Source: a virus
Reading direction: 5' to 3' (one strand)
IMG/VR virus record: IMGVR_UViG_3300042889_002881
Location: 1 to 27,720 of that record
DNA: 27,720 bases
Each line of letters starts with the position of its first letter. The stretch's first letter is position 1. Both the position numbers and the translations under genes were made by a program. Below are positions 2,701 to 27,006 of this stretch, piece after piece. The notes below the pieces were generated by a model. The model did not search any database and had not been told where the DNA came from. It worked only from the letters and a program-made list of their open reading frames with translations.

Positions 2701-5700
2701 ATGAATAAAGACATCCATCCTAAATTAAAAGCAATTATAAATCAAGCAATAAAAGATTCACAATCTTTTGATGATTTAAAAGTTAGACCTGAACACTTGA
2801 TTCTATCAATACTTAGTGATAATGACAATGTATCAACTAAAATTATTAAATCATTAAAAGTTAATATTAATGATTTATATGATACAATATCTGATTATTT
2901 AAGAAAAACTGATTTAATCCCTAGAATTGCGGTAACAAATAAAAGAAAACCACCGTTTTCTGAAGAAACAAAAGCAATCTTTAAGTTAGTTGATAAAGAA
3001 TGTGAAAAACATAATGATAAAATGATTGATACTCAACATATCATGTTAACAATTTTATCATCAAAATTACCAATAAATGATTTATTAAATGAAGTCGGTA
3101 TTAATTATAACAGTTTTAAAAACAAAATGAAAGAAGAAATTAAAAGCAGTGCATTTGATGATTCAGATATGGATGATATAAATGACGGGTTTAAGAAAAA
3201 ACCAATTAAAAATGATACAAAAACTAAAACACCTGTTTTAGATAACTTTTGCAGAGATGTATCTAAAGCTGTTGAAAATGGCGAGATTGACCCAGTAATT
3301 GGTAGAAAAACAGAAATTAAACGTGTGTCTCAAATTCTTTCTCGTAGAAAGAAAAATAATCCAATTCTTATTGGTGAACCTGGTGTTGGTAAAGCACAAC
3401 CATTAGATGCTAAGGTATTAACACCTAATGGATGGACAACTATGGGTGAAATAAATATTGGTGATGAAGTATTAACACCAGAAGGTAAAACAACTAAAGT
3501 AATTGGTATATACCCACAAGGTGAAAAAGATATTTATAGAATTAGTTTTAAAGATGGTAGAAGTACTGAAGCTTGTGGTGAACACCTATGGAAAGTTTAT
3601 GGGGTACCAGTAGGTAAAGAAAGAAAAAAATCTTGGTCTATTCTTAACACACTTGATATTAAAGATAAATTAGAAAACACCAAATATAAATTAAAATTAC
3701 CTTTGGTATCTGAAAATATAATTAAAGATGAAAAATTAGATTATGTTATCGACCCTTATTTAATGGGATTATTATTAGGTGATGGTCATTTTGGTAAATA
3801 TGAACTTTCACTCACTACCGATGATATTGAAATAGCTGAAAATGTTGAGGAAATAATTGGGTCAGATTATAAATTAGCTATAAATGGTAATGGAGTAAAA
3901 ACAAATACGTTTAGAATTAATATATCTGAAGATAAATTAATTGAAAAAAGAACTAGATATTATAAAAATGATAGAATCCACCCATTGTTGGAAGAGACTG
4001 ATTTATTGCACTTAACCGAAACAAAATCAAATAATAAATTTATTCCAGAAAAATATAAAAACGGTTCGTTAACTCAAAAAATATCGCTAATACAAGGATT
4101 AATGGATTCTGATGGAACTGTTACAAAAACTGGTGCGTTACAATATTCTAGCGTTAGCTATAAGTTAATTAAAGATATGCAAGAATTAATTTGGTCTATT
4201 GGTGGTGTTGCAAGTATAAGTGATAAACAAAGCTCTTACACATATAAAGGTGTGAAAAAATTGGGTCAAGTATCCTATGTTTTATCTATTAGATATCACT
4301 CACCAAAAAACTTATTCTTATTAGAGAGGAAAAAAGGAAAAGCACCAACTAATTACCAATATTCTAAAACACTTAAAAATAATATTGTTAAAGTAGTGTT
4401 AGTTGGTAAAAAAGAGGCTAAATGTATAATGATTGAAGATGATAATCATTTATATGTTACAGATAATTATATTGTAACGCATAACACATCTATTGTTGAA
4501 GGTTTAGCTCAATTAATTAAAGATGGTACAGCACCTAGAACACTTCTTGGTAAAAGAATATTCACTTTAGACCTAGCTTCAATTGTTGCTGGAACAAAAT
4601 TCCGTGGACAATTTGAAGAAAGAATGAAAGCTATCTTACAAGAGTGTAAAGCTAATCCAGATATTATTTTATTTATTGATGAATTACATACAATCATTGG
4701 TGCTGGTAATGCTTCAGGTTCATTAGATGCTTCAAACATTTTTAAACCAGCATTGGCTCGTGGAGAACTTCAAGTAATTGGTGCAACAACACTTGATGAA
4801 TATCGTGAGAATATTGAGAAAGATGGTGCGTTAACAAGACGTTTTCAACAAGTACTTGTAGAGGAACCAACCCTTGAAGAAACAAAAACTATTTTGTTAA
4901 ACATCAAAGAAAAATATGAAAAACATCATAAGGTTAGATATAGTGATGAAGCTATTGAAGAATGTGTAAAACTATCTGCTAGATATATCATGGATAGAAG
5001 TATGCCAGATAAAGCAATTGATGTGTTAGATGAAGCTGGTGCTAGTACCAACGTTAGTATTGAGAAACCAGAAAAAATTAAAAAATTAGAAATAAAAATT
5101 GCTGAAATTATTGAGCAAAAAAGACTAGTTGTTAATAAACAAAAATACGAAGAAGCTGCAAAACTTAGAGATGAAGAAAAAAAGGTTGAAGAAACTTTAG
5201 AAAAAGCTATTGTTGAATGGAATGAAAGCTTAGATAAAGATGTTACTGAAATTGGTGTTGAAACTATTTCTGAAATTGTATCAATGATGACTGGTATCCC
5301 ATTAAATAAAATATCAACTCAAGAAGGTAAACGCTTATTAAATTTAGATAAAGAATTAAGTGGTAGTGTTATTGGTCAAGAATCTGCAGTTGTTAAGGTT
5401 GTTAAAGCAATTAAACGTAACCGTATTGGAATAAAAGATAAAAACAAACCAGTTGGTTCATTTATCTTTTTAGGTCCAACTGGAGTAGGAAAAACGCTTT
5501 TGGCTAAGTTATTAGCTGAACAAGTATTTGGTGATGCTGAAGCTCTTGTTAGAATGGACATGTCAGAATACATGGAAAAACATTCAGTATCTAGACTTAT
5601 AGGTCCACCACCAGGATATGTTGGTTATGACCAAGGTGGTCAGTTGACTGAAAAGGTTAGAAGAAAACCACACTGTGTAATATTATTTGACGAAATTGAA

Positions 5701-6285
5701 AAAGCACACGAAGATGTATTCAACTTATTATTACAATTATTAGATGAAGGTCAATTAACAGATGGTTTAGGTCGCAAGGTTAATTTTAAAAATGCTTTGA
5801 TTATTATGACATCAAACATAGGTGTTAAAGAAGCAAATTCATTTGGTAAAAATATGGGATTTGAAACTGATTCTAAAATTCTTTCTGAAGAAAATAAAGT
5901 TAGAGATATCATTGAGAAAGCTTTAAAGAAAAAATTTAAACCAGAATTTCTTAATCGTATTGATGAAGCAATTGTTTTTAATTCATTAAGTAGAGAAGAT
6001 ATTCATAAAATTATCTATGTTGAAATTGAAAAATTAAAAGGTAGAATCGAAGAAATGCATTATACTTTAAACGTAACAGAAGCTGCTATTGATTTCTTAG
6101 CTGAACAAGGATATAGCGAAGAATATGGTGCTAGACCACTTAATAGAGCAATTCAACATTATATTGAAGATTCCGTTGCTGATGAGATACTTAATGAAAA
6201 TATCAAAGAAGGTGAAATAATCAACATCGATTATGTTAAAGGTGAGATAGTTGTAAAGACAACAAAGAAATCAAAATCTAAATAA
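2701..6285 (+). CDS. clpC: ClpC-like AAA+ protein unfoldase, interrupted by an intein
   Basis: 1194 residues precursor; removing the 364-residue intein leaves 830, normal for ClpC/ClpA. Order: Clp N-domain repeats (residues 1 to about 145), first AAA module with Walker A GEPGVGK (225-231) joined after splicing to TS, Walker B ending D660-E661, then a short middle segment with a UVR-like helix (QKYEEAAKLRDEEKKVEE) typical of ClpC rather than the long ClpB coiled coil. The second AAA module has Walker A GPTGVGKT (925-932), Walker B FDE (D997, E998) and GPPPGYVGY. MGF at 1052-1054 occupies the position of the ClpP-docking loop (usually [LIV]G[FL]), so it may dock to a ClpP, presumably of the host since none is seen here. 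It is driven by a host-type promoter and followed by a strong terminator. Likely role: remodelling or degrading host or phage proteins. Confidence 0.95.
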   Translation: MNKDIHPKLKAIINQAIKDSQSFDDLKVRPEHLILSILSDNDNVSTKIIKSLKVNINDLYDTISDYLRKTDLIPRIAVTNKRKPPFSEETKAIFKLVDKECEKHNDKMIDTQHIMLTILSSKLPINDLLNEVGINYNSFKNKMKEEIKSSAFDDSDMDDINDGFKKKPIKNDTKTKTPVLDNFCRDVSKAVENGEIDPVIGRKTEIKRVSQILSRRKKNNPILIGEPGVGKAQPLDAKVLTPNGWTTMGEINIGDEVLTPEGKTTKVIGIYPQGEKDIYRISFKDGRSTEACGEHLWKVYGVPVGKERKKSWSILNTLDIKDKLENTKYKLKLPLVSENIIKDEKLDYVIDPYLMGLLLGDGHFGKYELSLTTDDIEIAENVEEIIGSDYKLAINGNGVKTNTFRINISEDKLIEKRTRYYKNDRIHPLLEETDLLHLTETKSNNKFIPEKYKNGSLTQKISLIQGLMDSDGTVTKTGALQYSSVSYKLIKDMQELIWSIGGVASISDKQSSYTYKGVKKLGQVSYVLSIRYHSPKNLFLLERKKGKAPTNYQYSKTLKNNIVKVVLVGKKEAKCIMIEDDNHLYVTDNYIVTHNTSIVEGLAQLIKDGTAPRTLLGKRIFTLDLASIVAGTKFRGQFEERMKAILQECKANPDIILFIDELHTIIGAGNASGSLDASNIFKPALARGELQVIGATTLDEYRENIEKDGALTRRFQQVLVEEPTLEETKTILLNIKEKYEKHHKVRYSDEAIEECVKLSARYIMDRSMPDKAIDVLDEAGASTNVSIEKPEKIKKLEIKIAEIIEQKRLVVNKQKYEEAAKLRDEEKKVEETLEKAIVEWNESLDKDVTEIGVETISEIVSMMTGIPLNKISTQEGKRLLNLDKELSGSVIGQESAVVKVVKAIKRNRIGIKDKNKPVGSFIFLGPTGVGKTLLAKLLAEQVFGDAEALVRMDMSEYMEKHSVSRLIGPPPGYVGYDQGGQLTEKVRRKPHCVILFDEIEKAHEDVFNLLLQLLDEGQLTDGLGRKVNFKNALIIMTSNIGVKEANSFGKNMGFETDSKILSEENKVRDIIEKALKKKFKPEFLNRIDEAIVFNSLSREDIHKIIYVEIEKLKGRIEEMHYTLNVTEAAIDFLAEQGYSEEYGARPLNRAIQHYIEDSVADEILNENIKEGEIINIDYVKGEIVVKTTKKSKSK
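3394..4485 (+). mobile_element. Intein with LAGLIDADG endonuclease domain, probable class 3
   Basis: Residues 232-595 of the clpC product, inserted between Lys231 and Thr596 of the first Walker A motif, a favoured intein site. It starts with Ala (AQPLDAKVLTPNGW) rather than Cys or Ser and ends VTHN before Thr(+1). Block B contains EHLW (His295, Trp297), block F has Cys575 (AKCIMIEDD), and Thr593 precedes His594-Asn595. Trp297, Cys575 and Thr593 form the WCT triplet that defines class 3 inteins, in which the block F Cys acts first instead of residue 1. The central part has two LAGLIDADG-type motifs: LMGLLLGDG (353-361 region, Asp361) and LIQGLMDSDG (463-472). Both splicing and homing functions therefore look intact. 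Confidence 0.93.
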
Positions 6286-6288
6286 TTT

Positions 6289-6318
6289 AAAAAACCCACA
6301 ATTTTTTGTGGGTTTTTT
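6289..6318 (+). terminator. Terminator after clpC
   Basis: Perfect 12-bp stem: AAAAAACCCACA (6289-6300), a 6-nt loop, TGTGGGTTTTTT (6307-6318). It ends in a T run and works in principle on either strand. An upstream Met at 6306 in frame with the next gene lies inside this hairpin and is therefore unlikely as a start. Confidence 0.9.
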
Positions 6319-6319
6319 G

Positions 6320-6328
6320 TATATTTAT
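6320..6328 (+). promoter_or_regulatory. Candidate phage promoter box (TATATTTAT)
   Basis: TATATTTAT ends 4 nt before the ATG at 6333, directly after the clpC terminator, so a new transcript must start here. No TTG is found at the -33 position. One of a set of such boxes in this window. Confidence 0.5.
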
Positions 6329-6332
6329 ATGT

Positions 6333-7199
6333 ATGGGTATAGAAAAAATCTTAATTGATAGATATGGTGAATTTTTAAATTGGTTAAAAATTCACGAAAC
6401 TAATACTAGTATTAAACTATCAACAATAATAATAAAAGAAGAAGCTAGAAATCTTGGTATTGGTACTAAAGTTATGTTAGATTTGATTAAATATGCCGAT
6501 AATAATAAACAAATAATTACCCTTACACCATCAAGTGAATTTGGTGGTGATAAAAATAGATTAACACAATTTTATAAAAAATTTGGATTTAAATTAAATC
6601 TAGGAAATAATGATTTTATTGATACAATGATTAGATATCCAAAATTACCAAGTATGAAAGAAAATATGAAACCTATTATTAAATCTCTTCTTAGAGAAGC
6701 ATTAGATAAAACAATTACATGTACTGAATGTGGATGGCATTGGAAAGAATCTGAATCTGATAAAAAGGATTTATATATTTGTCATGAATGTGGTCACGAT
6801 AATACACCAAAAAAAGAAAATCTTAACGAAAGGGTTCTAACTAAAAAAGAAAAAGACCTTAAAGTAATGGCAGCATTTGTAAATTTTGCTAAAAAAGAAT
6901 TAGGAATTAATGATGATATTAAAGTGGCTTTGGCTTACGAAAGAACTCCAGATATTAAAACAACCGCTTATTATAACCTAAATGGTTTTGTTAAGATTTA
7001 TGTAAAAGATAGAGCAATAATTGATGTAATGCGTAGCGTGGGTCATGAATTATGTCACCACAAACAAAATTTAGAGGGAAGGTTAAAAGACTCTATTAAA
7101 GATGGTGAAGATGGTTCACCAATAGAAAACGAGGCAAATGCTGTTGCTGGAAAATTAATTAGGATTTATGGTAGATTACATCCAGAAATTTATATATAA
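6333..7199 (+). CDS. GNAT-like / zinc-ribbon / HExxH metallopeptidase fusion, probable virion cargo
   Basis: 288 residues from the Met chosen because it follows the promoter box and clears the terminator. Residues 1-100 look like part of a GNAT acetyltransferase: EEARNLGIGTKVMLDLIKYA (acetyl-CoA loop and helix) and FYKKFGF. Residues 112-123 (MKPIIKSLLREA) form a basic amphipathic helix ending L-R-E, like a capsid-targeting and prohead-protease site. Then a zinc ribbon (CTECGW at 130, CHECGH at 150) and a metallopeptidase core: GHELCHH (His238, Glu239, His242) with Glu267 in IENEANAVAG as likely third ligand. The Met at 112 could be the ancestral start of the peptidase, the GNAT part being a later fusion. 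Its final 25 residues recur, diverged, in the mini-ORF at 7990. A homing endonuclease begins 3 nt after the stop. Confidence 0.75.
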   Translation: MGIEKILIDRYGEFLNWLKIHETNTSIKLSTIIIKEEARNLGIGTKVMLDLIKYADNNKQIITLTPSSEFGGDKNRLTQFYKKFGFKLNLGNNDFIDTMIRYPKLPSMKENMKPIIKSLLREALDKTITCTECGWHWKESESDKKDLYICHECGHDNTPKKENLNERVLTKKEKDLKVMAAFVNFAKKELGINDDIKVALAYERTPDIKTTAYYNLNGFVKIYVKDRAIIDVMRSVGHELCHHKQNLEGRLKDSIKDGEDGSPIENEANAVAGKLIRIYGRLHPEIYI

Positions 7200-7202
7200 A
7201 AT

Positions 7203-7985
7203 ATGAAATTGATTAAGACAAGTGGAATTTATAAAATAATAAATCTTATAAATAATAAAATTTATATTGGTAGTGCGATTAATTTTAATCTAAGATATAG
7301 AAAACATATTTCAGATTTAAAAAATAATAACCATTGTAATAAGAAATTACAAAATGGTTGGAATAAACACGGTGAAGGTTCATTTGATTTTGTAATTATA
7401 GAACAAGTTATCGATAAAACAAAATTATTAGAACGTGAACAATATTATTTAGACAATTTAAAACCAGAATATAATATATGTAAAATAGCTGGTAATACAT
7501 TGGGAGTTAAAGTTTCGGATGAAACTAAGAAAAAAATATCCGAAACTTTAACTGATAAATTTTCTGGTGTTAATTCGTTTAATTATAAAGGTGGTTATAC
7601 TAAACCTAAAAATAAATTAGAAATAAATAAAACAGATATTTACGTAGAAGAAGTTATCGAAACCAGACAATCATTAAAATCTGGAAAAACAATCCTTCAA
7701 TACGATTCAAATATGGTTTTAATTCAAGAATGGGTATCAATTAAAAAAGCATCTGATACGTTAAAAATAAGTAGAACGGCAATAAAAAGATGTTTCGAAG
7801 GTAAAGATAGACATGCTGGGTTTTTTATTTGGAGATTAAAAGGTGAAGAATTTGTTGTTCACAATTTTAGAGTAAATACAATATTACAATTGAACGAAAA
7901 ATTAAAAATAAATAGAAAATACATAGGTTTAGCAATTAAAACTGGGAAAACTTATTGTGGTTTTTATTGGAAATTAAAAAATTAA
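7203..7985 (+). CDS. GIY-YIG homing endonuclease with NUMOD3 and NUMOD1 modules
   Basis: 260 residues. GIY-YIG nuclease core: GIY at 8-10, YIG at 21-23, arginines at 30-33 (RYRKH), catalytic Glu within LLEREQYYLD (75-84), closing EYNI. NUMOD3-like helix VSDETKKKISETL (104-116). NUMOD1 at about 163-211 (ILQYDSNMVLIQEW, SIKKASDTL, HAGFFIWRL), and a second partial NUMOD1-like copy at 225-258 ending CGFYWKLK. This is the free-standing Seg/I-TevI type that cuts a related genome lacking the gene and spreads by repair. It starts 3 nt after the metallopeptidase and is followed by a mini-ORF carrying a second copy of that peptidase's 3' end, so it probably entered here with exchange of flanking DNA. 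Confidence 0.93.
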   Translation: MKLIKTSGIYKIINLINNKIYIGSAINFNLRYRKHISDLKNNNHCNKKLQNGWNKHGEGSFDFVIIEQVIDKTKLLEREQYYLDNLKPEYNICKIAGNTLGVKVSDETKKKISETLTDKFSGVNSFNYKGGYTKPKNKLEINKTDIYVEEVIETRQSLKSGKTILQYDSNMVLIQEWVSIKKASDTLKISRTAIKRCFEGKDRHAGFFIWRLKGEEFVVHNFRVNTILQLNEKLKINRKYIGLAIKTGKTYCGFYWKLKN

Positions 7986-7989
7986 AATC

Positions 7990-8118
7990 ATGCCATACGA
8001 AGTAAAAGAAGAATGTCTTTATAAAAAATATGAAAGTGAAATAGAAAATGAAGCCAATGCAGTTGCTGGTGTAATAATAAAAAAATGGGGAAAAAAGAAT
8101 CCAGACTTATATGTATAA
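7990..8118 (+). pseudogene. Chimeric 42-residue remnant: MPYKV-type start joined to a metallopeptidase 3' end
   Basis: ATG at 7990, TAA at 8116-8118. The first 13 or so residues (MPYEVKEECLYKK) match the start of the DUF5661 gene at 8977 (MPYKVKGQCIYKK), and the bases around the ATG match too. The rest (IENEANAVAGVIIKKWGKKN, then PDLYV and stop) matches the last 25 residues of the metallopeptidase ending at 7199 (IENEANAVAGKLIRIYGRLH, then PEIYI and stop). It thus looks like a recombination scar left beside the GIY-YIG gene. It might be translated, and it overlaps the next gene's start by 8 nt, but it has no complete domain. Confidence 0.75.
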
Positions 8119-8976: not shown

Positions 8977-9417
8977 ATGCCATATAAAGTAAAAGGCCAA
9001 TGTATCTATAAAAAAGATGGTGGAGCCAAAGTAGGGTGCACCAAAGGTGATGTTAATAAATACTTAGCAGCATTGCATGCAAATGTTGATGAATCAGTTA
9101 AATTAACTGAAACAAATAAACTTAAAGGTGGTAAAGCAGATAAACTTACACCAGAAGATATCGCTAAAAAATTCAAGGTGAGTATATCAAGAATTCATGC
9201 TCAAATTCGTAAAGGAATCAAAGTTGAAATGGAACATACCAATGATAGAGAAAAAGCTAAAGAAATTGCAACTGACCATGTATCTGAATTCGCAGATTAC
9301 TATGATAGACTTAATAAGATGGAAGATAAAGCTGATAAATACTGGAAAGCTAAAGGTGTAACCGAGAGTACTAAATCACTTATTAAACGTCTTATACGTG
9401 AAAATTTAACAAAATAA
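8977..9417 (+). CDS. DUF5661-like phage protein with a C-terminal targeting-like helix
   Basis: 146 residues. The N-terminus MPYKVKGQCIYKKDGG with a nearby Cys (VGCTKGD) resembles short phage proteins of the MPYK type. The middle (about 70-115: RKGIKVEMEHTNDREKAK, then HVSEFADYYDRLNKME) follows the DUF5661 pattern, a helical domain of unknown function frequent in phages. The last residues, STKSLIKRLIREN, are a basic helix with L-I-R-E like the segments at the N-termini of neighbouring proteins, here C-terminal. It ends just before a bidirectional terminator. Confidence 0.75.
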   Translation: MPYKVKGQCIYKKDGGAKVGCTKGDVNKYLAALHANVDESVKLTETNKLKGGKADKLTPEDIAKKFKVSISRIHAQIRKGIKVEMEHTNDREKAKEIATDHVSEFADYYDRLNKMEDKADKYWKAKGVTESTKSLIKRLIRENLTK

Positions 9418-9419
9418 TA

Positions 9420-9438
9420 AAGAGCCGTAATGGCCCTT
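9420..9438. terminator. Bidirectional terminator hairpin
   Basis: AAGAGCC (9420-9426), loop GTAAT, GGCCCTT (9432-9438) with one G-T wobble; A/T runs on both sides. It ends the DUF5661 transcript on the plus strand and the GNAT 3' remnant on the minus strand. Confidence 0.7.
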
Positions 9439-9598
9439 ATTTATTTCCTATATATTCGTGACTGAAACAAACTCTCTTTGTATCAAAATAATGTTCCTTG
9501 AACATATCCTTGATTGTTACGTCTTTTCTTAATTTTCTATTCTTGCTAGTAGGTTTCCACAATTCTGATTTTTCAAAATAAAAACCAATTCTAGGATG
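9437..9598 (-). pseudogene. Detached second copy of the GNAT gene 3' end
   Basis: On the minus strand 53 codons and a stop, beginning HPRIGFYFEKSELWKPTSK and ending FSHEYIGNK. Aligned without gaps to the GNAT encoded at 10491-10339 (HPRIIYFFEDSKIWKPTSK to FEYIG), 31 of 51 residues are identical by my count. There is no start codon: the frame runs into a stop just upstream, next to the promoter box of the Vsr-like endonuclease. It keeps a normal stop and a terminator, so this is probably the original 3' end of the GNAT gene, cut off when the endonuclease gene arrived. The other copy, attached to the living gene, has an altered tail. Confidence 0.88.
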
Positions 9599-9614
9599 TT
9601 TTAACTTTTTTTCG

Positions 9615-9623
9615 TATATTTAT
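9615..9623 (+). promoter_or_regulatory. Candidate phage promoter box (TATATTTAT)
   Basis: TATATTTAT, 11 nt before the ATG of the Vsr-like endonuclease; no -33 TTG. Confidence 0.5.
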
Positions 9624-9634
9624 AATAAAAAGTT

Positions 9635-10381
9635 ATGGGTAGAAAAGTAACAACAGATGATTTCATAGTAAAATCTAAAATAATTCATGGTGATAAATAT
9701 GATTATTCATTAGTAAAGTATGTTAATGTAAAAACAAAAATAAAAATAATATGTGAAATACATGGTGAATTTGAATTATCACCGAATAAACATTTAGGTA
9801 AAAGAGGATGTCAAAAATGTAGTATCACTAATATGTGTAAATTAATTTCAAGTAATGATGAAGAATTCATAAAAAAAGCAATAAATATACATGGTGATAA
9901 ATATAATTATGATAAAATAAAATATACTGGTAATGGAGTAAAAATAGAAATAATATGTAATAAACATGGAATATTTAAACAAACACCACATAATCATTTA
10001 GCTGGTAATGGTTGTCCAATTTGTAGAGAATCAAAGGGTGAAAAAGAAATTAAAGAATTTTTAATAAGAAATAATATAATTTATACCCCACAAAAAAGAT
10101 TTATAGATTGTAGAAATATATTACCATTACCATTTGATTTTTATTTACCTGATTTTAATATTTGTATTGAATATCAAGGTATACAACATTTTAAACCAAG
10201 AAGTAAATTTGGTGGTGAAAAAGAATTTAATAAATTATTGATTCGTGATAATATTAAACTTAATTATTGTCTAATTAATAAAATTGAATTAATTATTATT
10301 AATTATAAAGATGATATCTTAGAAAAATTATTAGAACTACCGATATATTCAAAACTACCACATAAACGTTTATTATCATAA
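9635..10381 (+). CDS. Homing endonuclease with two zinc fingers and a Vsr/PD-(D/E)XK-like nuclease domain
   Basis: 248 residues. Two repeats of a zinc-binding unit, each preceded by a HGDKYxYxxxKY box: CEIHGEF...GCQKC (Cys40, His43, Cys59, Cys62) and CNKHGIF...GCPIC (Cys108, His111, Cys127, Cys130). Then a Vsr/EDxHD-type nuclease: GEKEIKEFL (Glu137), FDFYLPD (Asp168 to Asp172), IEYQGIQHF (Glu179, His185) and a later IRDNIK. This organisation occurs in phage-encoded free-standing homing endonucleases. The last 26 codons lie antisense over the C-terminal codons of the GNAT gene (10303-10381), so its C-terminal tail (KLPHKRLLS) is derived from the inserted-into gene. Flanked by two copies of the GNAT 3' end. 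Confidence 0.85.
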   Translation: MGRKVTTDDFIVKSKIIHGDKYDYSLVKYVNVKTKIKIICEIHGEFELSPNKHLGKRGCQKCSITNMCKLISSNDEEFIKKAINIHGDKYNYDKIKYTGNGVKIEIICNKHGIFKQTPHNHLAGNGCPICRESKGEKEIKEFLIRNNIIYTPQKRFIDCRNILPLPFDFYLPDFNICIEYQGIQHFKPRSKFGGEKEFNKLLIRDNIKLNYCLINKIELIIINYKDDILEKLLELPIYSKLPHKRLLS

Positions 10382-10746
10382 ATATGATTTTTATACATAT
10401 CTTTATCAGAAACATCACGTCTTATTTTTTTATGTTTAGATGTTGGTTTCCATATTTTTGAATCTTCAAAAAAATAAATTATCCTAGGATGACTAGTTCT
10501 TACAAAAAACTTATGACCTTGTTCTAAGTGGATTTGAGCGATTGTATCTATTAATCTAACACCTAACCCTATTCCTTGAAATTCGGGCAACACAACAGCT
10601 CTGTGCAATCGCCAGCCATTCTTTATTGTTCCACTTGGTATAGTAATTGTTGAAGCAAATCCAATGATTCTATCCTCCCATACAGCAACATAACATCTGG
10701 AAGCTTTATTTATGTTAGCACTTAAATAGTGATGGTCTTTAAACAT
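10303..10746 (-). CDS. GNAT acetyltransferase domain, second half of a COG2401-like ATPase-GNAT protein
   Basis: 147 residues from the first Met, but the frame is open and conserved-looking further upstream to 10821: RPRIDIQIYQTTYDKWE precedes MFKDHHYLS. GNAT features: HHYLSANINKASRCYVAVW, and the acetyl-CoA loop VVLPEFQGIGLG. In the COG2401 family an ABC ATPase and this acetyltransferase are one protein. Here the upstream ATPase is in the other frame, and a -1 shift on a run of nine T (10809-10801) would fuse them into about 370 residues. Alternatively it is translated separately from Met10746. The C-terminus is unusual: homology to the detached remnant stops at EYIG (10339), and the tail SSNNFSKISSL runs into the antisense of the endonuclease gene. 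Substrate unknown. Confidence 0.85.
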   Translation of the reverse strand: MFKDHHYLSANINKASRCYVAVWEDRIIGFASTITIPSGTIKNGWRLHRAVVLPEFQGIGLGVRLIDTIAQIHLEQGHKFFVRTSHPRIIYFFEDSKIWKPTSKHKKIRRDVSDKDMYKNHIYDNKRLCGSFEYIGSSNNFSKISSL

Positions 10747-11411
10747 TTCCCATTTATCATACGTTGTTTGATAAATTTGAATATCGATTCTTGGTCGGAC
10801 AAAAAAAAACCGTGAAGTAATTCACCTGTATCAGCATTTAATACCCAATCAGGTTCTAACCAATCTAATATATCATGATGACATGTTGAAACTACTATAT
10901 TTTCCAAGTCATTATTCTTTATGTATTTTGATAATGAGACACTGGCCGCTTTGGCTACATCTCTATCAACTACACTAGTAAATTCATCAATAACTGAATT
11001 TGATTTAATCTTACGAGCCAAATCAGCTCTAAACTTCTCACCATTGGATAATACATGATATGGTTTATACCAAGAAGGGATGGAATTTAATCCAACACTA
11101 CCTAATTTATTTATTGCATCATCTGGTGAATCAAAATGGGATACGATTGATTTATTTAGTTCCCATATTGGGAACTCTTCAGTTCCAAACTTTTTCAACA
11201 TAGTTGATTTACCAGAACCACTAGAACCTACGATTACACCTAATTTAAATTTTGTTGGGATTTGAGTTGGAAATTTCCATGGATAAAATTTTGATGTACC
11301 ATCAAAGATACAATCAAAAGCCTTCTCACTAGCAATGATAAATTCATCACGTTCTACGCTGGATACCAAAGGTGTGGTATCTCTTTCTAATTTTTCTATA
11401 ACTTTTTCCAT
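10722..11411 (-). CDS. ABC-type ATPase, first half of a COG2401-like ATPase-GNAT protein
   Basis: 229 residues as read. Complete ABC nucleotide-binding set: Walker A GSSGSGKST (62-70), signature LSNGEKFRADLAR (121-133), Walker B VIDEF (Asp142, Glu143), D-loop-like SVVDRD, and H-loop STCHHD. No membrane segments, so it is a soluble ABC ATPase and not a transporter. After GELLHGF (residue 201) the frame becomes unlike the family (LSDQESIFKFIKQ...), while the other frame continues as the acetyltransferase. The switch falls on T9 read as GGT TTT TTT TTG. The last 25 nt overlap the GNAT start codon region. A large hairpin lies between this start and the gene upstream. Confidence 0.9.
   Translation of the reverse strand: MEKVIEKLERDTTPLVSSVERDEFIIASEKAFDCIFDGTSKFYPWKFPTQIPTKFKLGVIVGSSGSGKSTMLKKFGTEEFPIWELNKSIVSHFDSPDDAINKLGSVGLNSIPSWYKPYHVLSNGEKFRADLARKIKSNSVIDEFTSVVDRDVAKAASVSLSKYIKNNDLENIVVSTCHHDILDWLEPDWVLNADTGELLHGFFLSDQESIFKFIKQRMINGKCLKTITI
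10800..10809 (-). promoter_or_regulatory. Candidate -1 frameshift or slippage site (T9 followed by G)
   Basis: On the coding (minus) strand GGT TTT TTT TTG in the ATPase frame, i.e. in-frame slippery heptamers T TTT TTT and T TTT TTG. A one-base backward shift, or one extra T from polymerase slippage, joins ATPase to GNAT exactly where COG2401-like proteins are continuous. A sequencing or assembly error in the homopolymer would look the same. Confidence 0.6.
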
Positions 11412-11989: not shown

Positions 11990-12520
11990 TTAACAAATTT
12001 TATCGGCAACATTGCTAGCGGCTGGTGCTTCTGGTTTTATTTTAAATTCATAACCCATACCTAAGATATAACCTACAGCTGATTGTAAAGCTTTATTAGA
12101 TTCATGTTTTGGGTCTGGATTAATATCGGCATGGATTTCTAAAGGTATTTCATATAAATCTAATAATTCAGCAACTTCAGCAGCAACTTCAATTGATTTA
12201 CCTACTTCAAATACCATTCTTTCATTAACTAACCCTTTATCTCTTTTTTTACCATCTAATTCTTTTTTCATAAAGTCATGGTTATATATTGCGGACACAA
12301 TCATACCACCACGACCCCAAATAACACCACCACCTAAATCTTCTGTACTAGTAATAAGAATTACTGTTGCAAATTTATATAGTGTTTTAGTTATTTTTTG
12401 TGAATCGGTACCAATAGATACTTTTAATTTATAATTTTTTTCTAATTGCTCATCAAACAATTTTTCTAAGTAATCTACTATTGATTCTTCAATTACTTTG
12501 TTGTTTCTTTTCCATTCCAT
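11990..12520 (-). CDS. YkuK-like (DUF458) RNase H-fold protein
   Basis: 176 residues, the full length of the family. VSIGTDSQ (Asp39) begins the first strand of the RNase H-like fold, then a central region with GLVNERMVFEVGKS (Glu100), HADINPDPKHESN (Asp132 to Asn142) and the closing SNVADKI. The family (Bacillus YkuK, DUF458) is predicted to bind or cut nucleic acid, but its substrate is not known. No Shine-Dalgarno and no clear promoter is seen ahead of the start; the 63 nt upstream hold the terminator of the preceding gene. Confidence 0.88.
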   Translation of the reverse strand: MEWKRNNKVIEESIVDYLEKLFDEQLEKNYKLKVSIGTDSQKITKTLYKFATVILITSTEDLGGGVIWGRGGMIVSAIYNHDFMKKELDGKKRDKGLVNERMVFEVGKSIEVAAEVAELLDLYEIPLEIHADINPDPKHESNKALQSAVGYILGMGYEFKIKPEAPAASNVADKIC

Positions 12521-17089: not shown

Positions 17090-20000
17090 TTATAATGATA
17101 ATGGTTTCCATATTGTTCCTGTCCAACCAAAGAAATTTTTATTTACTGAATCAAATACTATTGTTCCTTCACCACCACTTGGTACTGGTGTTGTTGCACC
17201 ACTAGTTAAACTAGTATATGAATTTGAACCAACTGTAACCGCACCATTAACATGTAATGCTTCTAATGGATTAACTACGTTAATACCAATTCTACCTTGT
17301 GTTTGTGCACTTATACTTGGATTACCTGTTGTTCCTGAATATGTATTTTTTCCAAATAAAACACCACCCAAGTTTAAGCTATTTGTTGAACCTGATGGTA
17401 ATGATATACTAGTACCAATGATTATATTATTAAAACCAATTTTATTGTTAGTGAAAGCTAGACCAACATTAGCACCAAATAAATTTGAATAACTAGCACC
17501 TGTCGCACCATTACCTGCATTAGTACCAAAGAAATTTGAATCATTTGCATTTGTTGCTTGATAACCAGCACCAATACCAAAGAAATTAGATGCCCTAGCA
17601 TTTGTTGCGTTTTTACCAGCCCAATCACCAAAGAAATTTGAATATTCAGCAAGAATTGAGTCTCTACCAGCTTGAGCACCAAAGAAATTTGAATAACTAG
17701 CACCTGTCGCACCATTACCTGCATTAGTACCAAAGAAATTTGATTCATAAGCAATTGTTGCGTTTCGACCAGCACCATAACCAAAGAAATTTGAATTACT
17801 AGCACCTGTTGCATTATTACCAGCAAAATAACCAAAGAAATTTGAATATTGAGCTTCGGTTGCGTTATTACCAGCATATTGACCCATAAAGTTTGAATAA
17901 GAAGCACCTGTCGCACCATTACCTGCATTAAGACCAAAGAAATTCGAATCATTAGCATCCGTTGCACCATTACCAGCATTCTGACCAAAGAAATTTGAAT
18001 AATTTGCATTTGTTGCTAGATTACCAGCACTATAACCTATAAAATTTGAATCATAAGCACTTGTTGCACTATAACCAGCACTATAACCTATAAAATTTGA
18101 ATCATTTGCATTTGTTGCTTGATAACCAGCACCATTACCTATAAAATTTGATTGATTAGCATCTGCTGCAGCATAACCAGCATAAGAACCTATAAAATTT
18201 GATTGATTAGCACCTGTTGCAGCATAACCAGCACTTTCACCAAAGAAATTTGAATTACTAGCACCTATTGCACCATAACCAGCATATTGACCCATAAAGT
18301 TTGAATATTGAGCTTCGATTGCATAAGCACCAGCACTACTACCAAAGAAATTTGAATTAGATGCAGCTGTTGCACCATTACCAGCATTAGGACCAAAGAA
18401 ATTCGAATCATAAGCACTTGTTGCACTATAACCAGCACTATAACCTAAGAAATTTGAATTAGATGCAGCTGTTGCACCATAACCAGCCTCAGGACCAAAG
18501 AAATTTGAATAACTAGCATTTGTTGCAAATCGACCAGCCAATGACCCCATGAAGTTTGAATATCCAGCATCTGTTGCTTGATAACCAGCCCCTTCTCCAA
18601 TGAAATTTGATACTATAGCATTTACTGCTTGATAACCAGCATTAAGACCAAAGAAATTTGATTGACTAGCACCTGTCGCACCATTACCTGCATTAGTACC
18701 AAAGAAATTTGATTCATAAGCAATTGTTGCGTTTCGACCAGCACGATAACCAAAGAAATTTGAATTATTAGCGTTGGTTGCGTATTGACCAGCTAGCCAA
18801 CCAAAGAAGTTTGAACTAGGAGCATCTGTTGCACCCATACCAGCTTGATGACCCAAAAAGTTTGAATCATTTGCATTGGTTGCACCATAACCAGCTAGCC
18901 AACCAAAGAAATTAGATTGATAAGCATATGTTGCTTGAAGACCAGCATTAAGACCAAAGAAATTTGAATAATAAGCATTTGTTGCTAGATAACCAGCTTG
19001 TTGACCAAAGAAATTTGAATAATAAGCATTTGTTGCACCATATCCAGCTTGATTACCCATGAAGTTTGAATAACTAGCATTTGTTGCACCATAACCAGCG
19101 TAAATACTCATAAAATTTGAATATCTAGCATTTGTTGCTAGATATCCAGCTCGATTGCCCATAAAATTTGAGTCATTTGCACTTGTTGCTTCATAACCAG
19201 CTTGATTACCCAAGAAATTTGAATATTGTGCACTTGTTGCTTGATATCCAGCACCATAACCAAAGAAATTTGAATAAATAGCATTTGTTGCGTTTTGACC
19301 AGTTTGATATAATCCAGTTGAAAATAAACTTGAATTATTTACAATACTTATTGCTAAATTACTTGAACCTGTAACTACAACTACAACTCCATCTATATCA
19401 ATACCTAGAGTATTAAGACTAGTACCACTTGATAATGTTTTTATATTTAATCTGTCAACATAAGTTGTGTTTGATGTATTTCCAGTTATATTAGCACCTA
19501 ATACAATTGTATTGGTTCCATTTGCTTGTGATTGATTACCATAAACAAAACTTGTATCACCAAATGCAATACTTCTATATCCCCCAGCATGACTATTAAC
19601 ACCCATAAAATTAGTCGCTAAAGGATTTTGTAAATCATTTATGTCAGCAACTGTTGCTATTCCTCCAACACTTGAGATTGTTGTTATTCTATAAGCAGTA
19701 TTAGAAGCACCATTAAATGTTTCCATATATGTGTCATCAATTCCATTTGATACACCACTATTAGGATTAAATCCTCCAATATATGGATTTTCTTCAATTA
19801 TAATGTCAATAATTGTTGGATTATCTTTATAAAATAAATAATTATAAACTAAATTTGGTGTTCCACCTGTTGAACAATTAACATTATAATCATAATAAGT
19901 ACCTTCATATCTAACAACTAAAATATTACCACTATCAGTAAATCCAGTATATAAAGCACACATAATTCCATCATTATCATGGTCTGATTCATCACCATAT

Positions 20001-20845
20001 GTTGATAAAAATATCCCACCAAACCCAATTTCACTTGGTATGTCACTTGGAAAATTTAAACAACACGAATCGTTTCCACCACCAAAAGTTAAATAATTGT
20101 TTGTGGAAACATTTATTGATGAATAATCGACACCTAAAAAATTAACATCAAAATAAGTTGGTAACTCAATAAAAAAGTTATAATCATCATTTTCTCCACC
20201 AATATCTACACTATCAAACCCTGATTTATCAATTGGTGAATATGTTAATGAATCAATTGTAACTGTATATTCTGAAATAGGTATATCTAAAAGAATATTA
20301 AAATTAGGTTCAATATATTCTACAGATAAATATGGTGTAATTTCCCCATTTAATAATACACTCCCACTATTAAAATTACTTGTATAATCAACACCATCAC
20401 TTATAGTAACAACATTACCAGATAATATACTATTAAATGTACGATATCCAGTTATATTATTATAACCCTCAACAAAACTGTTTTCAGCATTTGCTATATT
20501 AAAATTACCAATACTAACTGAATTAATACCGTTTGTTTCATTATTTGTGTTTTTCGTTGTTAATGAATTTAAACCAGTACCAGCTGACCATAATAAATCA
20601 CCAATAGTAAAACCAGTTACACTATATGTTCCACCCGTATTGTTAGTAAAAGTAGCTATACCCGTAATTTCATTATAAGTACCACCAGTGGTAAATGTAT
20701 CTATATTAGAACCACTAGATGTAGGTATTTGTGAAAGTAAATAACCAAACGTTGTTTGTGATGTAACACTATTAGTAACAATAGGTATTATTGAATCTGG
20801 AGTTAAATCTCCAAAAGGTAATTCTGATACTTTTCTATCTGCCAT
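17090..20845 (-). CDS. Large tail fibre / adhesin with 36 tandem 17-residue repeats
   Basis: 1251 residues. The N-terminus (MADRKVSELPFGDL, then IIPIVTNSVTSQTTFGYLL) resembles attachment ends of phage tail fibres. Residues about 210-400 contain a beta-rich domain with a Cys pair (SCCLNF) and FDVNFLGVDYSSINVSTNNY, loosely like nidogen-type sandwiches. Residues 524-1135 are 36 perfect-length repeats of x-SNFFG-xx-AG-xx-AT-x-A-x. The last 116 residues have a fibre-like end: RIGINVVNPLEALHVNG, GTIVFDSVNKNFFGW, IWKPLSL. It likely forms a trimeric, elongated receptor-binding shaft. The repeats recall YadA-type head repeats in rhythm (SNFFG and AG steps), but the unit is 17 and not 14 residues. A GATATTTAT box is 17 nt upstream of the start. 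Confidence 0.88.
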   Translation of the reverse strand: MADRKVSELPFGDLTPDSIIPIVTNSVTSQTTFGYLLSQIPTSSGSNIDTFTTGGTYNEITGIATFTNNTGGTYSVTGFTIGDLLWSAGTGLNSLTTKNTNNETNGINSVSIGNFNIANAENSFVEGYNNITGYRTFNSILSGNVVTISDGVDYTSNFNSGSVLLNGEITPYLSVEYIEPNFNILLDIPISEYTVTIDSLTYSPIDKSGFDSVDIGGENDDYNFFIELPTYFDVNFLGVDYSSINVSTNNYLTFGGGNDSCCLNFPSDIPSEIGFGGIFLSTYGDESDHDNDGIMCALYTGFTDSGNILVVRYEGTYYDYNVNCSTGGTPNLVYNYLFYKDNPTIIDIIIEENPYIGGFNPNSGVSNGIDDTYMETFNGASNTAYRITTISSVGGIATVADINDLQNPLATNFMGVNSHAGGYRSIAFGDTSFVYGNQSQANGTNTIVLGANITGNTSNTTYVDRLNIKTLSSGTSLNTLGIDIDGVVVVVTGSSNLAISIVNNSSLFSTGLYQTGQNATNAIYSNFFGYGAGYQATSAQYSNFLGNQAGYEATSANDSNFMGNRAGYLATNARYSNFMSIYAGYGATNASYSNFMGNQAGYGATNAYYSNFFGQQAGYLATNAYYSNFFGLNAGLQATYAYQSNFFGWLAGYGATNANDSNFLGHQAGMGATDAPSSNFFGWLAGQYATNANNSNFFGYRAGRNATIAYESNFFGTNAGNGATGASQSNFFGLNAGYQAVNAIVSNFIGEGAGYQATDAGYSNFMGSLAGRFATNASYSNFFGPEAGYGATAASNSNFLGYSAGYSATSAYDSNFFGPNAGNGATAASNSNFFGSSAGAYAIEAQYSNFMGQYAGYGAIGASNSNFFGESAGYAATGANQSNFIGSYAGYAAADANQSNFIGNGAGYQATNANDSNFIGYSAGYSATSAYDSNFIGYSAGNLATNANYSNFFGQNAGNGATDANDSNFFGLNAGNGATGASYSNFMGQYAGNNATEAQYSNFFGYFAGNNATGASNSNFFGYGAGRNATIAYESNFFGTNAGNGATGASYSNFFGAQAGRDSILAEYSNFFGDWAGKNATNARASNFFGIGAGYQATNANDSNFFGTNAGNGATGASYSNLFGANVGLAFTNNKIGFNNIIIGTSISLPSGSTNSLNLGGVLFGKNTYSGTTGNPSISAQTQGRIGINVVNPLEALHVNGAVTVGSNSYTSLTSGATTPVPSGGEGTIVFDSVNKNFFGWTGTIWKPLSL
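17441..19276 (-). repeat. 36 tandem 51-bp coding repeats in the fibre gene
   Basis: 1836 bp equal exactly 36 x 51 bp with no phase break. Consensus unit: [YDNQE]-SNFFG-xx-AGYGAT-x-A-x. SNF is kept in 35 of the 36 units (SNL in the last), while the two residues after G and the residue before SNF vary most. The last unit decays (LAFTNNK). Some longer blocks are repeated nearly identically: the pair of units starting near 17700 recurs near 18670. Confidence 0.95.
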
Positions 20846-20921: not shown

Positions 20922-21446
20922 ATGGCAAATTTAAATTTTAACAAAGATTTAGCTCTAGGAAATCAAGGGGAAATAGTAATTAAAGGTAAAAAAACATATG
21001 GTAATAATTATAAAACAATTAATGCAACTGATTTAAAGATAGTACCTAAAATAATGGAAAAATTTGATATAACTTATGAAAAAAATTCAAAAACAAAAAC
21101 ATATTATCCACCTAATATTTTACTTTTTGAAAAAATGAGTGATGAATTGTTTTTATCATATTTAATTGGTTTTATCGATGGTGACGGCTCTATCTCTAAA
21201 GAAATTAATAATGGTAATTCTATAACTATAACATCACATAAAAATTGGGTTACTATATTAAACAATTGGTCATCTAGAATAGAAAAAATTTTTAATTGTA
21301 AATTAAGTGAAAAAAGTTTAAAAAAAGAAAAGGATTATTATAGATTAAAAATATATAACCAAAAAATAATAAAACCGTTAAAAGAATTTATTTTAAAAAA
21401 TAAATTAATTGTTAACGAAAATAAATGGAGTAGAATAAATGAGTAA
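20922..21446 (+). CDS. Single-motif LAGLIDADG homing endonuclease with a borrowed-looking N-terminus
   Basis: 174 residues. One LAGLIDADG helix, SYLIGFIDGDGSI (about 79-91), followed by the usual beta-sheet region (SITITSHKNWVTILNNW, DYYRLKIYN) and a C-terminal helix (IIKPLKEFI). With a single motif it would act as a homodimer. The first 17 residues, MANLNFNKDLALGNQGE, are unlike a homing endonuclease. They look like the start of another phage protein, possibly of nuclease type, so the gene may have captured or interrupted one. A TAACTTTG box (20895-20902) precedes the start but lacks a good -33 TTG. The 3' end overlaps the HNH gene by 8 nt. Confidence 0.88.
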   Translation: MANLNFNKDLALGNQGEIVIKGKKTYGNNYKTINATDLKIVPKIMEKFDITYEKNSKTKTYYPPNILLFEKMSDELFLSYLIGFIDGDGSISKEINNGNSITITSHKNWVTILNNWSSRIEKIFNCKLSEKSLKKEKDYYRLKIYNQKIIKPLKEFILKNKLIVNENKWSRINE

Positions 21447-22062
21447 ATCAAAATTAGAAATTGAGCTTATCCCCAAAACGTGTCATTTTTCAAATATTAG
21501 AAGTACAGTAACATCAGCAGAATGGGATAAAATAAGATTCATATCATATGCCGCTGCCAATAACAAATGTGAGATATGTGGTAGTGACGGTTTAAAACAA
21601 GGATATAAACATAAAGTTGAATGTCATGAAGTATGGCATTATGATGATAAAAATAAAATTCAAAAATTAATAAAATTAGTATCTCTTTGCCCCACATGTC
21701 ACCAAGTTAAACACATTGGCCGCTCAATAGCAATAGGAAAACAAGATGTGTGTTTCCAACAATTAGCTAAAGTAAATAAATGGACACAAAAAGAAATCGA
21801 AGAACACATTTCAAGCTCATTTCAACTACATAAAGAACGTTCCAAGTATCAATGGTCACTTGATTTGTCTTTGTTAACTACAGAGCCTTATAATATTGTT
21901 TTGAAGGAAACTAAAGAAAGGATATTCGAAGTCAAAAAAAAATATAAGAAAAAACCTAAGGTAGCAGGTGCACCCAAAAAAGTTCACCCAAAAGCTAAAT
22001 TAGCCGCAGCTCTTAAACCTAAAACAACTGGTAACAAAAAACCACCTAAGAGTAATAAATAA
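21439..22062 (+). CDS. HNH-type nuclease with a long Lys/Pro-rich basic tail
   Basis: 207 residues. Zinc-finger HNH core: CEIC (44-47), then HKVECHEVWHYDD (58-70) as the HNH-like beta strand with His63 and His67, and LCPTCHQVKHIG (83-94) giving the second Cys pair and final His. The core is bacterial or phage HNH in type and lacks NUMOD modules. From about residue 165 the tail is almost only Lys, Pro, Ala and Gly (KKKYKKKPKVAGAPKK), histone-H1-like and suited to non-specific DNA binding. It may be a packaging or recombination nuclease rather than a homing enzyme. It overlaps the LAGLIDADG gene at its start and the convergent phosphoesterase gene by 17 nt at its end. Confidence 0.8.
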   Translation: MSKSKLEIELIPKTCHFSNIRSTVTSAEWDKIRFISYAAANNKCEICGSDGLKQGYKHKVECHEVWHYDDKNKIQKLIKLVSLCPTCHQVKHIGRSIAIGKQDVCFQQLAKVNKWTQKEIEEHISSSFQLHKERSKYQWSLDLSLLTTEPYNIVLKETKERIFEVKKKYKKKPKVAGAPKKVHPKAKLAAALKPKTTGNKKPPKSNK

Positions 22063-26433: not shown

Positions 26434-27006
26434 ATGGAAGAAAATTGGAAAATACACGAAGATTATGAAAACTATGAGTTCTCAAATTATGGGCGTTTCA
26501 GAAATGCTGAAACAAAAAAGATATTAAAAAATACAATAGATGATAAATCAAATAAAACAGAAAAAGGTGGTTATGTGATTTCATTCATTAAAAATTCTAA
26601 ACTAGGTATTAGAAAAAGAGTTAGAATACATAGAATGGTTGGATTATTATTTGTTCATAACCCAAAACCGTCAGAATATAATATCATAAATCATATTGAT
26701 GGAAATAAAACGAATAATCATTATTCTAATTTAGAATGGACAACAGTTTATGAAAATAATAAACATGCAATAATGAATAATCGTACAGTTATTGTTCAAA
26801 AATTAACCGATGAAAATGTTAAATTAATAAGACAAGATTTTTTAAATGATGTGAGTTCAATCAAAGAACTTAGTTTAAAATATAATGTACATAAAACAAC
26901 AATTAGTAATGTCATAAAATATGTTACATGGAAAAATATTGATGCTGATTTGGTTGAAAACTATTTAACTATGGTTAAAACTAAATATGAAATAAAAGGG
27001 GTCTAA
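26434..27006 (+). CDS. NUMOD4-HNH homing endonuclease
   Basis: 190 residues. NUMOD4 at 5-35 (WKIHEDYENYEFSNYGRFRN), a linking strand region with IHRMVGLLFVHNP, the HNH core INHIDGNKTNNHYSNLEW (85-102), then a C-terminal helix-turn-helix DNA reader (IKELSLKYNVHKTTISNV, 143-160). This is the common free-standing phage HNH type. Unlike the other homing genes here it has its own perfectly spaced host-type promoter, so it can be expressed as soon as the DNA enters. The gene it may target cannot be told from its flanks; a GGGGTCT direct repeat lies at its end (near 26998 and 27050). Confidence 0.93.
   Translation: MEENWKIHEDYENYEFSNYGRFRNAETKKILKNTIDDKSNKTEKGGYVISFIKNSKLGIRKRVRIHRMVGLLFVHNPKPSEYNIINHIDGNKTNNHYSNLEWTTVYENNKHAIMNNRTVIVQKLTDENVKLIRQDFLNDVSSIKELSLKYNVHKTTISNVIKYVTWKNIDADLVENYLTMVKTKYEIKGV

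Follow-up and report, generated by a model that had tools for sequence, protein, structure and literature searches.

A homing endonuclease gene inserted in a phage acetyltransferase gene probably brings along a substitute for the end that it breaks

Results

Features of the GNAT locus

The window, that is, the whole stretch of viral DNA analysed (27,720 nucleotides; IMG/VR record IMGVR_UViG_3300042889_002881, positions 1 to 27,720), contains a GNAT acetyltransferase gene, a homing endonuclease gene and a second, detached GNAT 3' end. Related loci are designated by L numbers.

9420..9436, minus strand: original terminator-like hairpin of GNAT, now behind the remnant; colinear with L003 to window position 9413
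9437..9598, minus strand: remnant, the original GNAT 3' end, class G (HPRIG.., SKNRK, CFSHEYIG), matching the single 3' end of L003
9599..9634, plus strand: endonuclease leader with promoter-like TATATTTATAAT (TATTTAT motif)
9635..10381, plus strand: homing endonuclease gene (PHROG endonuclease families), last 79 nt antisense to GNAT
10303..10516, minus strand: imported GNAT 3' end, class I (HPRII.., SKHKK, CGSFEYIG), with the new tail SSNNFSKISSL
10303..10821, minus strand: GNAT reading frame, the working target gene (Pfam Acetyltransf_1, E 1.3e-9; 64 related loci)

The minus strand at 9437-9598 encodes HPRIGFYFEKSELWKPTSK through EYIGNK, followed by a stop. This detached piece extends from the insertion point to the original stop, beginning at 9598 with the CAT of HPR and ending with the stop at 9437, and it has no start codon near its beginning. 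It had been recognised in a sequence-only reading as a copy of the GNAT C-terminus with 31 of 51 residues identical over HPRI..EYIG, a count that we recovered (31/55 in the BLAST alignment), and the similarity was clearly significant (protein alignment score 189 vs. a maximum of 59 in 1000 shuffles). With GNAT as query against the whole record, the only matches were the gene itself and the detached piece (E 1.8e-20). The endonuclease gene lies between the two GNAT ends as that reading had placed it, although not exactly so, since its 3' end overlaps the GNAT frame in antisense by 79 bases (10303-10381); the new tail SSNNFSKISSL is indeed encoded by this overlap. A group I intron around the endonuclease was considered and rejected: no Rfam match was obtained in the window at gathering thresholds, and the target gene reads uninterrupted into its new end.

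The open GNAT frame continues 5' of the ATG at 10746 and overlaps the ABC ATPase gene. This extension is conserved across relatives (FFFVRPxIxI..MFKDHHYL), and a T9 run where the ABC ATPase and GNAT frames meet (window 10801-10809, minus strand) is kept in nearly all of them; L006 and L029 have ten T here and a single fused frame. From these alignments, an ABC-GNAT fusion is probably produced across the T9 run, by slippage or -1 frameshifting, with GNAT as its second half, and therefore the ATG at 10746 may not be the true start.

The endonuclease was modelled with high confidence (AF2, pLDDT 92.7). Its N-terminal part consists of two zinc-ribbon-like repeats with cysteine pairs, as judged from alignment and model, and the best structural matches of the C-terminal domain were Vsr (1cw0_A, Z 10.2) and I-Bth0305I (3r3p_A, Z 9.9, rmsd 3.0 over 92 residues). 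The predicted catalytic fold agrees with the Vsr-like assignment made earlier from the letters of the sequence. Foldseek was weak by itself (E 0.02) and a PDB sequence search with the endonuclease gave no match, the relation to Vsr and I-Bth0305I being seen through fold comparison only. Across 30 aligned relatives, E136, D168, H185, and D205 varied little or not at all; their putative correspondence to the EDxHD motif is by order, not by superposition. The motif TATTTAT was present upstream of 39% of the endonuclease family members vs. 17% of control ORFs, and in all GNAT elements at the insertion site of the window (site A, below). In the leaders of the family it often lies ~20-30 nt before the start codon, and it is possibly a late-type promoter.

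An empty allele reveals the original gene end

A search of viral contigs with GNAT yielded 64 loci, L003 being the closest. This nearest relative has no endonuclease at the GNAT place and a single GNAT 3' end. The window and L003 are colinear and 87.7% identical through three upstream genes and GNAT; the more upstream part of GNAT is nearly identical in both, and the 3' end of the window gene diverges abruptly at ~10516. The single end of L003 together with its terminator matched the remnant of the window (89.8% of nucleotides over 187 bases; 98% of amino acids over 53 residues in a local hit), which indicates that the remnant is the original end in place and that the working end was imported. 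The sequence-only reading had proposed that the 3' end of a related allele arrived with the endonuclease and that the old end was left as a remnant. L003 supports this proposal: as anticipated for an endonuclease-free relative, its single end resembles the remnant and not the working end of the window, and it carries no detached second end. Comparison of both ends with their homologues, also suggested at that stage, gave the same picture, the remnant being nearest to L003 (0.93) and the working end nearest to L004 and L005 (0.76), whose upstream parts are not the closest to that of the window.

The imported tract (10303..10516) was recognised by the sharp drop in identity with L003 at ~10516 and by a 3' class that departs from the upstream tree (see below). 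With the insertion at 10491, the tract begins ~25 bases ahead of that point, as expected of co-conversion. Judged from these alignments, the element is a point insertion inside the GNAT gene, consisting of a replacement 3' end, the endonuclease gene and a short leader. Other loci keep less of this structure: L040 and L041 have only an endonuclease tail and a short GNAT end fragment, and L038 only an endonuclease tail; we read these as decayed elements.

Two other differences in gene ends were observed among the relatives. At 5437-7131 of L003, a DUF5661 gene is prolonged by a long additional C-terminal part, at a place that in the window holds a short gene (8977-9417), and L040 has a similar long DUF5661 form near GNAT. 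In L013 (7595-7666) and also in L014, the last ~24 GNAT codons are copied ~2.2 kb downstream of the gene, and the interval holds other open reading frames and no endonuclease of the 9635-10381 family.

Further GNAT elements and two classes of 3' end

Profile searches over all GNAT loci revealed five more elements with the same layout, in L035 (two, nested), L045/L046, L067/L068, and L073. In L035, the gene is followed by an endonuclease, an end fragment that starts at codon 74, another endonuclease, and an end fragment that starts at codon 108; on this arrangement, one element is inserted into the replacement end of an older one. Two insertion sites were distinguished: site A (window, inner element of L035, L045/L046, and L067) and site B (outer element of L035 and L073), the latter near codon 71-74. 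The remnant starts at the identical base, CAYCC of the HPR codons, in all site-A elements. For L073, a colinear empty allele is provided by L042, at 93% on one side and 88.5% on the other, and 235 bases are doubled in L073 relative to it.

Most GNAT relatives have one 3' end only. The ends fall into class G (HPRMG.., SKNKK, CFSHEYIG) and class I (HPRMI.., SKHKK, CGSFEYIG). In the site-A elements the working end belongs to class I and the remnant to class G, and in L073 the classes are reversed. On an upstream tree built from the ABC ATPase and the N-terminal part of GNAT (47 rows), 13 class changes were needed (mean of 15.3 with shuffled labels; 70 of 500 shuffles as low), vs. 2 changes on the 3'-end tree, a tree of 55 columns (0/500 shuffles as low). 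This indicated that GNAT 3' ends have moved independently of the rest of the gene.

The alternation of two end classes independently of the upstream gene, and their reversal in L073, are also what would be seen if the detached end were a silent cassette and recombination switched the acetyltransferase C-terminus, with the endonuclease as the switching enzyme. We consider this highly unlikely, given that most relatives have one 3' end and no cassette, that elements nest and decay, and that unrelated genes show this layout too (those for virion-like proteins and an exonuclease, and an RNase H-like gene; see below).

A second element with a GIY-YIG endonuclease

Another detached gene end is found in the window, beside an endonuclease gene of a different type:

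6306..7199, plus strand: target gene with replaced 3' end; GNAT-like N-terminus, zinc-peptidase-like C-terminus
7203..7985, plus strand: GIY-YIG homing endonuclease with NUMOD domains (Pfam GIY-YIG, E 1.9e-12); absent here from L003
7977..8028, plus strand: 5'-end fragment of a DUF5661 gene, imported next to the GIY-YIG gene (78.8% against the beginning of DUF5661 in L003)
8027..8118, plus strand: remnant of the 6306-7199 gene, its original 3' end, with SEIENEANAVAGVIIKKWGKKNPDLYV and a stop (E 1.2e-7 against the working copy)

The piece at 8027-8118 is a detached copy of the last 27 codons of the 6306-7199 gene. The single end of L003 is colinear with this detached copy (87.3% over 974 nt) and not with the working end. 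In many relatives, DUF5661 lies immediately 3' of the peptidase-like gene. The simplest reading of the DUF5661 piece would be a one-sided repair, in which upstream-side homology only was used, the donor was copied through the GIY-YIG gene into the donor's next gene, and the copy was then joined to the broken end of the recipient. GIY-YIG genes were also found behind an RNase H-like gene, a homologue of window 11990-12520, in L008 (2711-3588), L012 (2835-3717), and L039 (948-1868); the last 12-13 codons of the RNase H-like gene are repeated past the endonuclease.

Duplicated gene ends beside related endonuclease genes

Scanning with the endonuclease also uncovered relatives outside the GNAT locus. 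The survey started from close relatives and does not amount to a census. Sites were scored for same-strand, protein-level duplication within 200 nt of both endonuclease ends, with mismatched flank pairs as control. An adjacent gene-end duplication was found at 19 of 125 testable distinct endonuclease sites, six of them GNAT elements, vs. 1 of 248 mismatched pairs; the weakest matches (E near 1e-4) may be due to chance. At the sensitivity used, adjacent duplication was undetected in the other 106 of the 125 family members. Targets other than GNAT included virion-like genes (L145, L082), a gene weakly similar to a head-tail adaptor (L074, with a similar end in L078), and 5'-3' exonucleases, where the N-terminus was duplicated (L141, probably also L216); at an RNA 2'-phosphotransferase gene (L080) the duplication was looser and more distant. 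In the clear cases, the endonuclease gene has its 3' end toward the working copy and its 5' end toward the remnant.

Empty alleles were also available for some of these targets. L239 lies on the same contig as L145. To either side of its insertion it is 98.7 and 99.6% identical to L240, which has one gene end and no endonuclease; the remnant of L239 is the same as the L240 end. The first codons past the insertion in the L239 working copy are AGC GAT GTT TTC ATT vs. AGT GAT ATA TTT ATT, the next ~85 bases are identical, and other changes occur at the tail only. Such codon changes would be expected of a recoded cut site. L243 (= L082) compared with L244, L245, and L247 represents another insertion at a 3' end. 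L248 (= L141) compared with L249-L252 is a 5'-end insertion in the exonuclease gene: the former N-terminal coding piece precedes the endonuclease, behind which the gene restarts with a rewritten N-terminus. In most elements the working and remnant ends differ over their entire length, with a weak gradient at the insertion point over all elements (34% near vs. 23% far), and local recoding at this point was clear in two young elements only, L239 and L082.

An endonuclease flanked by two diverged copies could likewise have arisen if the GNAT 3' end was first duplicated in tandem and the endonuclease later landed between copies that had diverged. Such an order of events is strongly disfavoured and, in our judgement, very improbable: L003 has a single copy and the remnant is the original end, still in place and followed by its terminator, independent elements share the identical remnant start base, and the otherwise near-identical L239 and L240 differ in duplication and endonuclease together.

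The insertion of a complete unit was also weighed against ordinary intronless homing, in which an endonuclease beside the gene cuts elsewhere and the remnant is a meaningless accident of imprecise repair. The T4 Seg endonucleases cut neighbours hundreds of bases off and co-convert them, and SegA, SegF, and SegG have cut sites that are hundreds to thousands of bases away from their own genes, according to the parts of that paper drawn on here (PMC2988022). The phage elements resemble this system, as there described, in having a free-standing endonuclease beside the gene converted, and the GIY-YIG element, with its piece of the donor's next gene, resembles one-sided repair. They differ in that T4-type insertions are between genes, whereas the present ones lie at a fixed base inside coding sequence and carry the end that completes it; a displaced gene end is not mentioned for Seg in the same parts of the source (PMC2988022). 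Together with a recurrence far above chance (19/125 vs. 1/248), these differences make accidental remnants of intronless homing unlikely, though less so than the two alternatives discussed above.

Endonuclease genes tested in eight cultured phages, including Klebsiella KP13-7, Salmonella Munch, FpV4, 121Q, and GAP32, showed no convincing adjacent duplication, and duplication matches in a Staphylococcus phage were discounted as they are located in repeated flanking sequence. The flanks of the other endonuclease genes of the window (20922-22062 and 26434-27006) showed no convincing duplication either. Elsewhere in the window, the frame of a Clp-family ATPase (2701-6285) has, by eye on its translation, an apparent intein-like interruption in the first nucleotide-binding domain near Walker A, and 17090-20845 encodes a 1251-residue protein consisting mostly, by eye, of a repeated YSNFFGxxAGxxAT-like unit, which is probably a virion fibre.

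Discussion

Homing endonucleases of phages are usually described in introns, in inteins or between genes. Taken together, the results indicate that the GNAT locus very probably contains a free-standing homing element that does without splicing and brings along a substitute for the gene end that it breaks. We infer that in sensitive alleles the endonuclease would cut within the coding sequence of the target gene, close to the insertion point or right at it. The break would be repaired from an element-bearing genome, so that the replacement gene end, the endonuclease and the leader are copied in, and the broken-off original end would stay behind, detached. Completed by the replacement end, the target gene keeps an open frame. 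The working gene should also resist recutting, since the imported end differs at the putative cut site. In later rounds, the remnant may act as a second homology arm, as proposed for the WHO elements of yeasts.

In the WHO elements of Torulaspora and Lachancea (Coughlan et al., 2020), the mobile unit comprises the endonuclease gene and an FBA1 3' end; homing replaces the FBA1 3' end and leaves the old one as a fragment, and repeated homing stacks decaying elements (PMC7282813). The 5' and 3' parts of the target give conflicting trees, and fragments of other genes occur in WHO10 insertions (PMC7282813). In the phage elements too, the endonuclease has the full-length target gene on one side and a detached copy of that gene's end on the other; the detached end is likewise the recipient's original and the working end is foreign (L003, L042, L240, L249), and the two parts of the GNAT gene have conflicting histories (13 vs. 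2 changes, the 3'-end tree having few columns). WHO elements reside in nuclear yeast genes and encode an intein-like nuclease with a zinc finger, whose cleavage was shown by experiment (PMC7282813). The elements found here reside in phage genes, have Vsr-like or GIY-YIG nucleases, involve several target genes, and occur in a 5'-end version as well. Descent from the WHO family of HO-related intein-zinc finger proteins was rejected, a Vsr-like restriction-endonuclease fold and, in the second element, GIY-YIG standing in place of the intein-like domain; thus, the nucleases being unrelated, the phage elements are not WHO elements by descent.

A similar structure is described for mobile ORFs of fungal mitochondria, in the Allomyces atp6 hybrid and in atp6, atp9, cox2, and nad3 of Glomus: a foreign C-terminal end and an endonuclease ORF are inserted, the native C-terminal end is displaced downstream, and the native end groups with relatives while the inserted one does not (PMC3630166, in the sections used here). 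The endonucleases are LAGLIDADG or GIY-YIG, and those sections mention neither a nested stack nor a 5'-end form (PMC3630166). I-Bth0305I and other EDxHD (Vsr-like) homing endonucleases share the predicted catalytic fold of the window endonuclease, which differs in its DNA-binding part (zinc-ribbon-like repeats) and in being a free-standing gene that carries the end of its target. In the open-access literature searched, no phage precedent for gene-end-replacing homing was found.

We consider it likely that phages host a general class of invaders of coding sequence that bring resistant replacement ends, on which at least two unrelated nuclease families (Vsr-like and GIY-YIG) would have converged, at 3' and 5' ends, and which would sustain an ongoing shuffling of gene ends between phages. 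The elements represent a further way to occupy coding sequence without splicing, in which a gene end is replaced and the old end is left behind. This would explain short gene-end fragments adjoining endonuclease genes, easily missed by annotation, as well as differing histories of the two halves of one phage gene. The natural pairs of empty and occupied alleles of one gene offer direct material for tests of cutting and immunity. Finally, in engineered home-and-rescue and cleave-and-rescue drives a nuclease is linked to a rescue copy of its target, as outlined in the portions of the reports used here (PMC7968924, PMC7951863); the phage elements, being natural, would be a natural counterpart to cleave-and-rescue gene drives.
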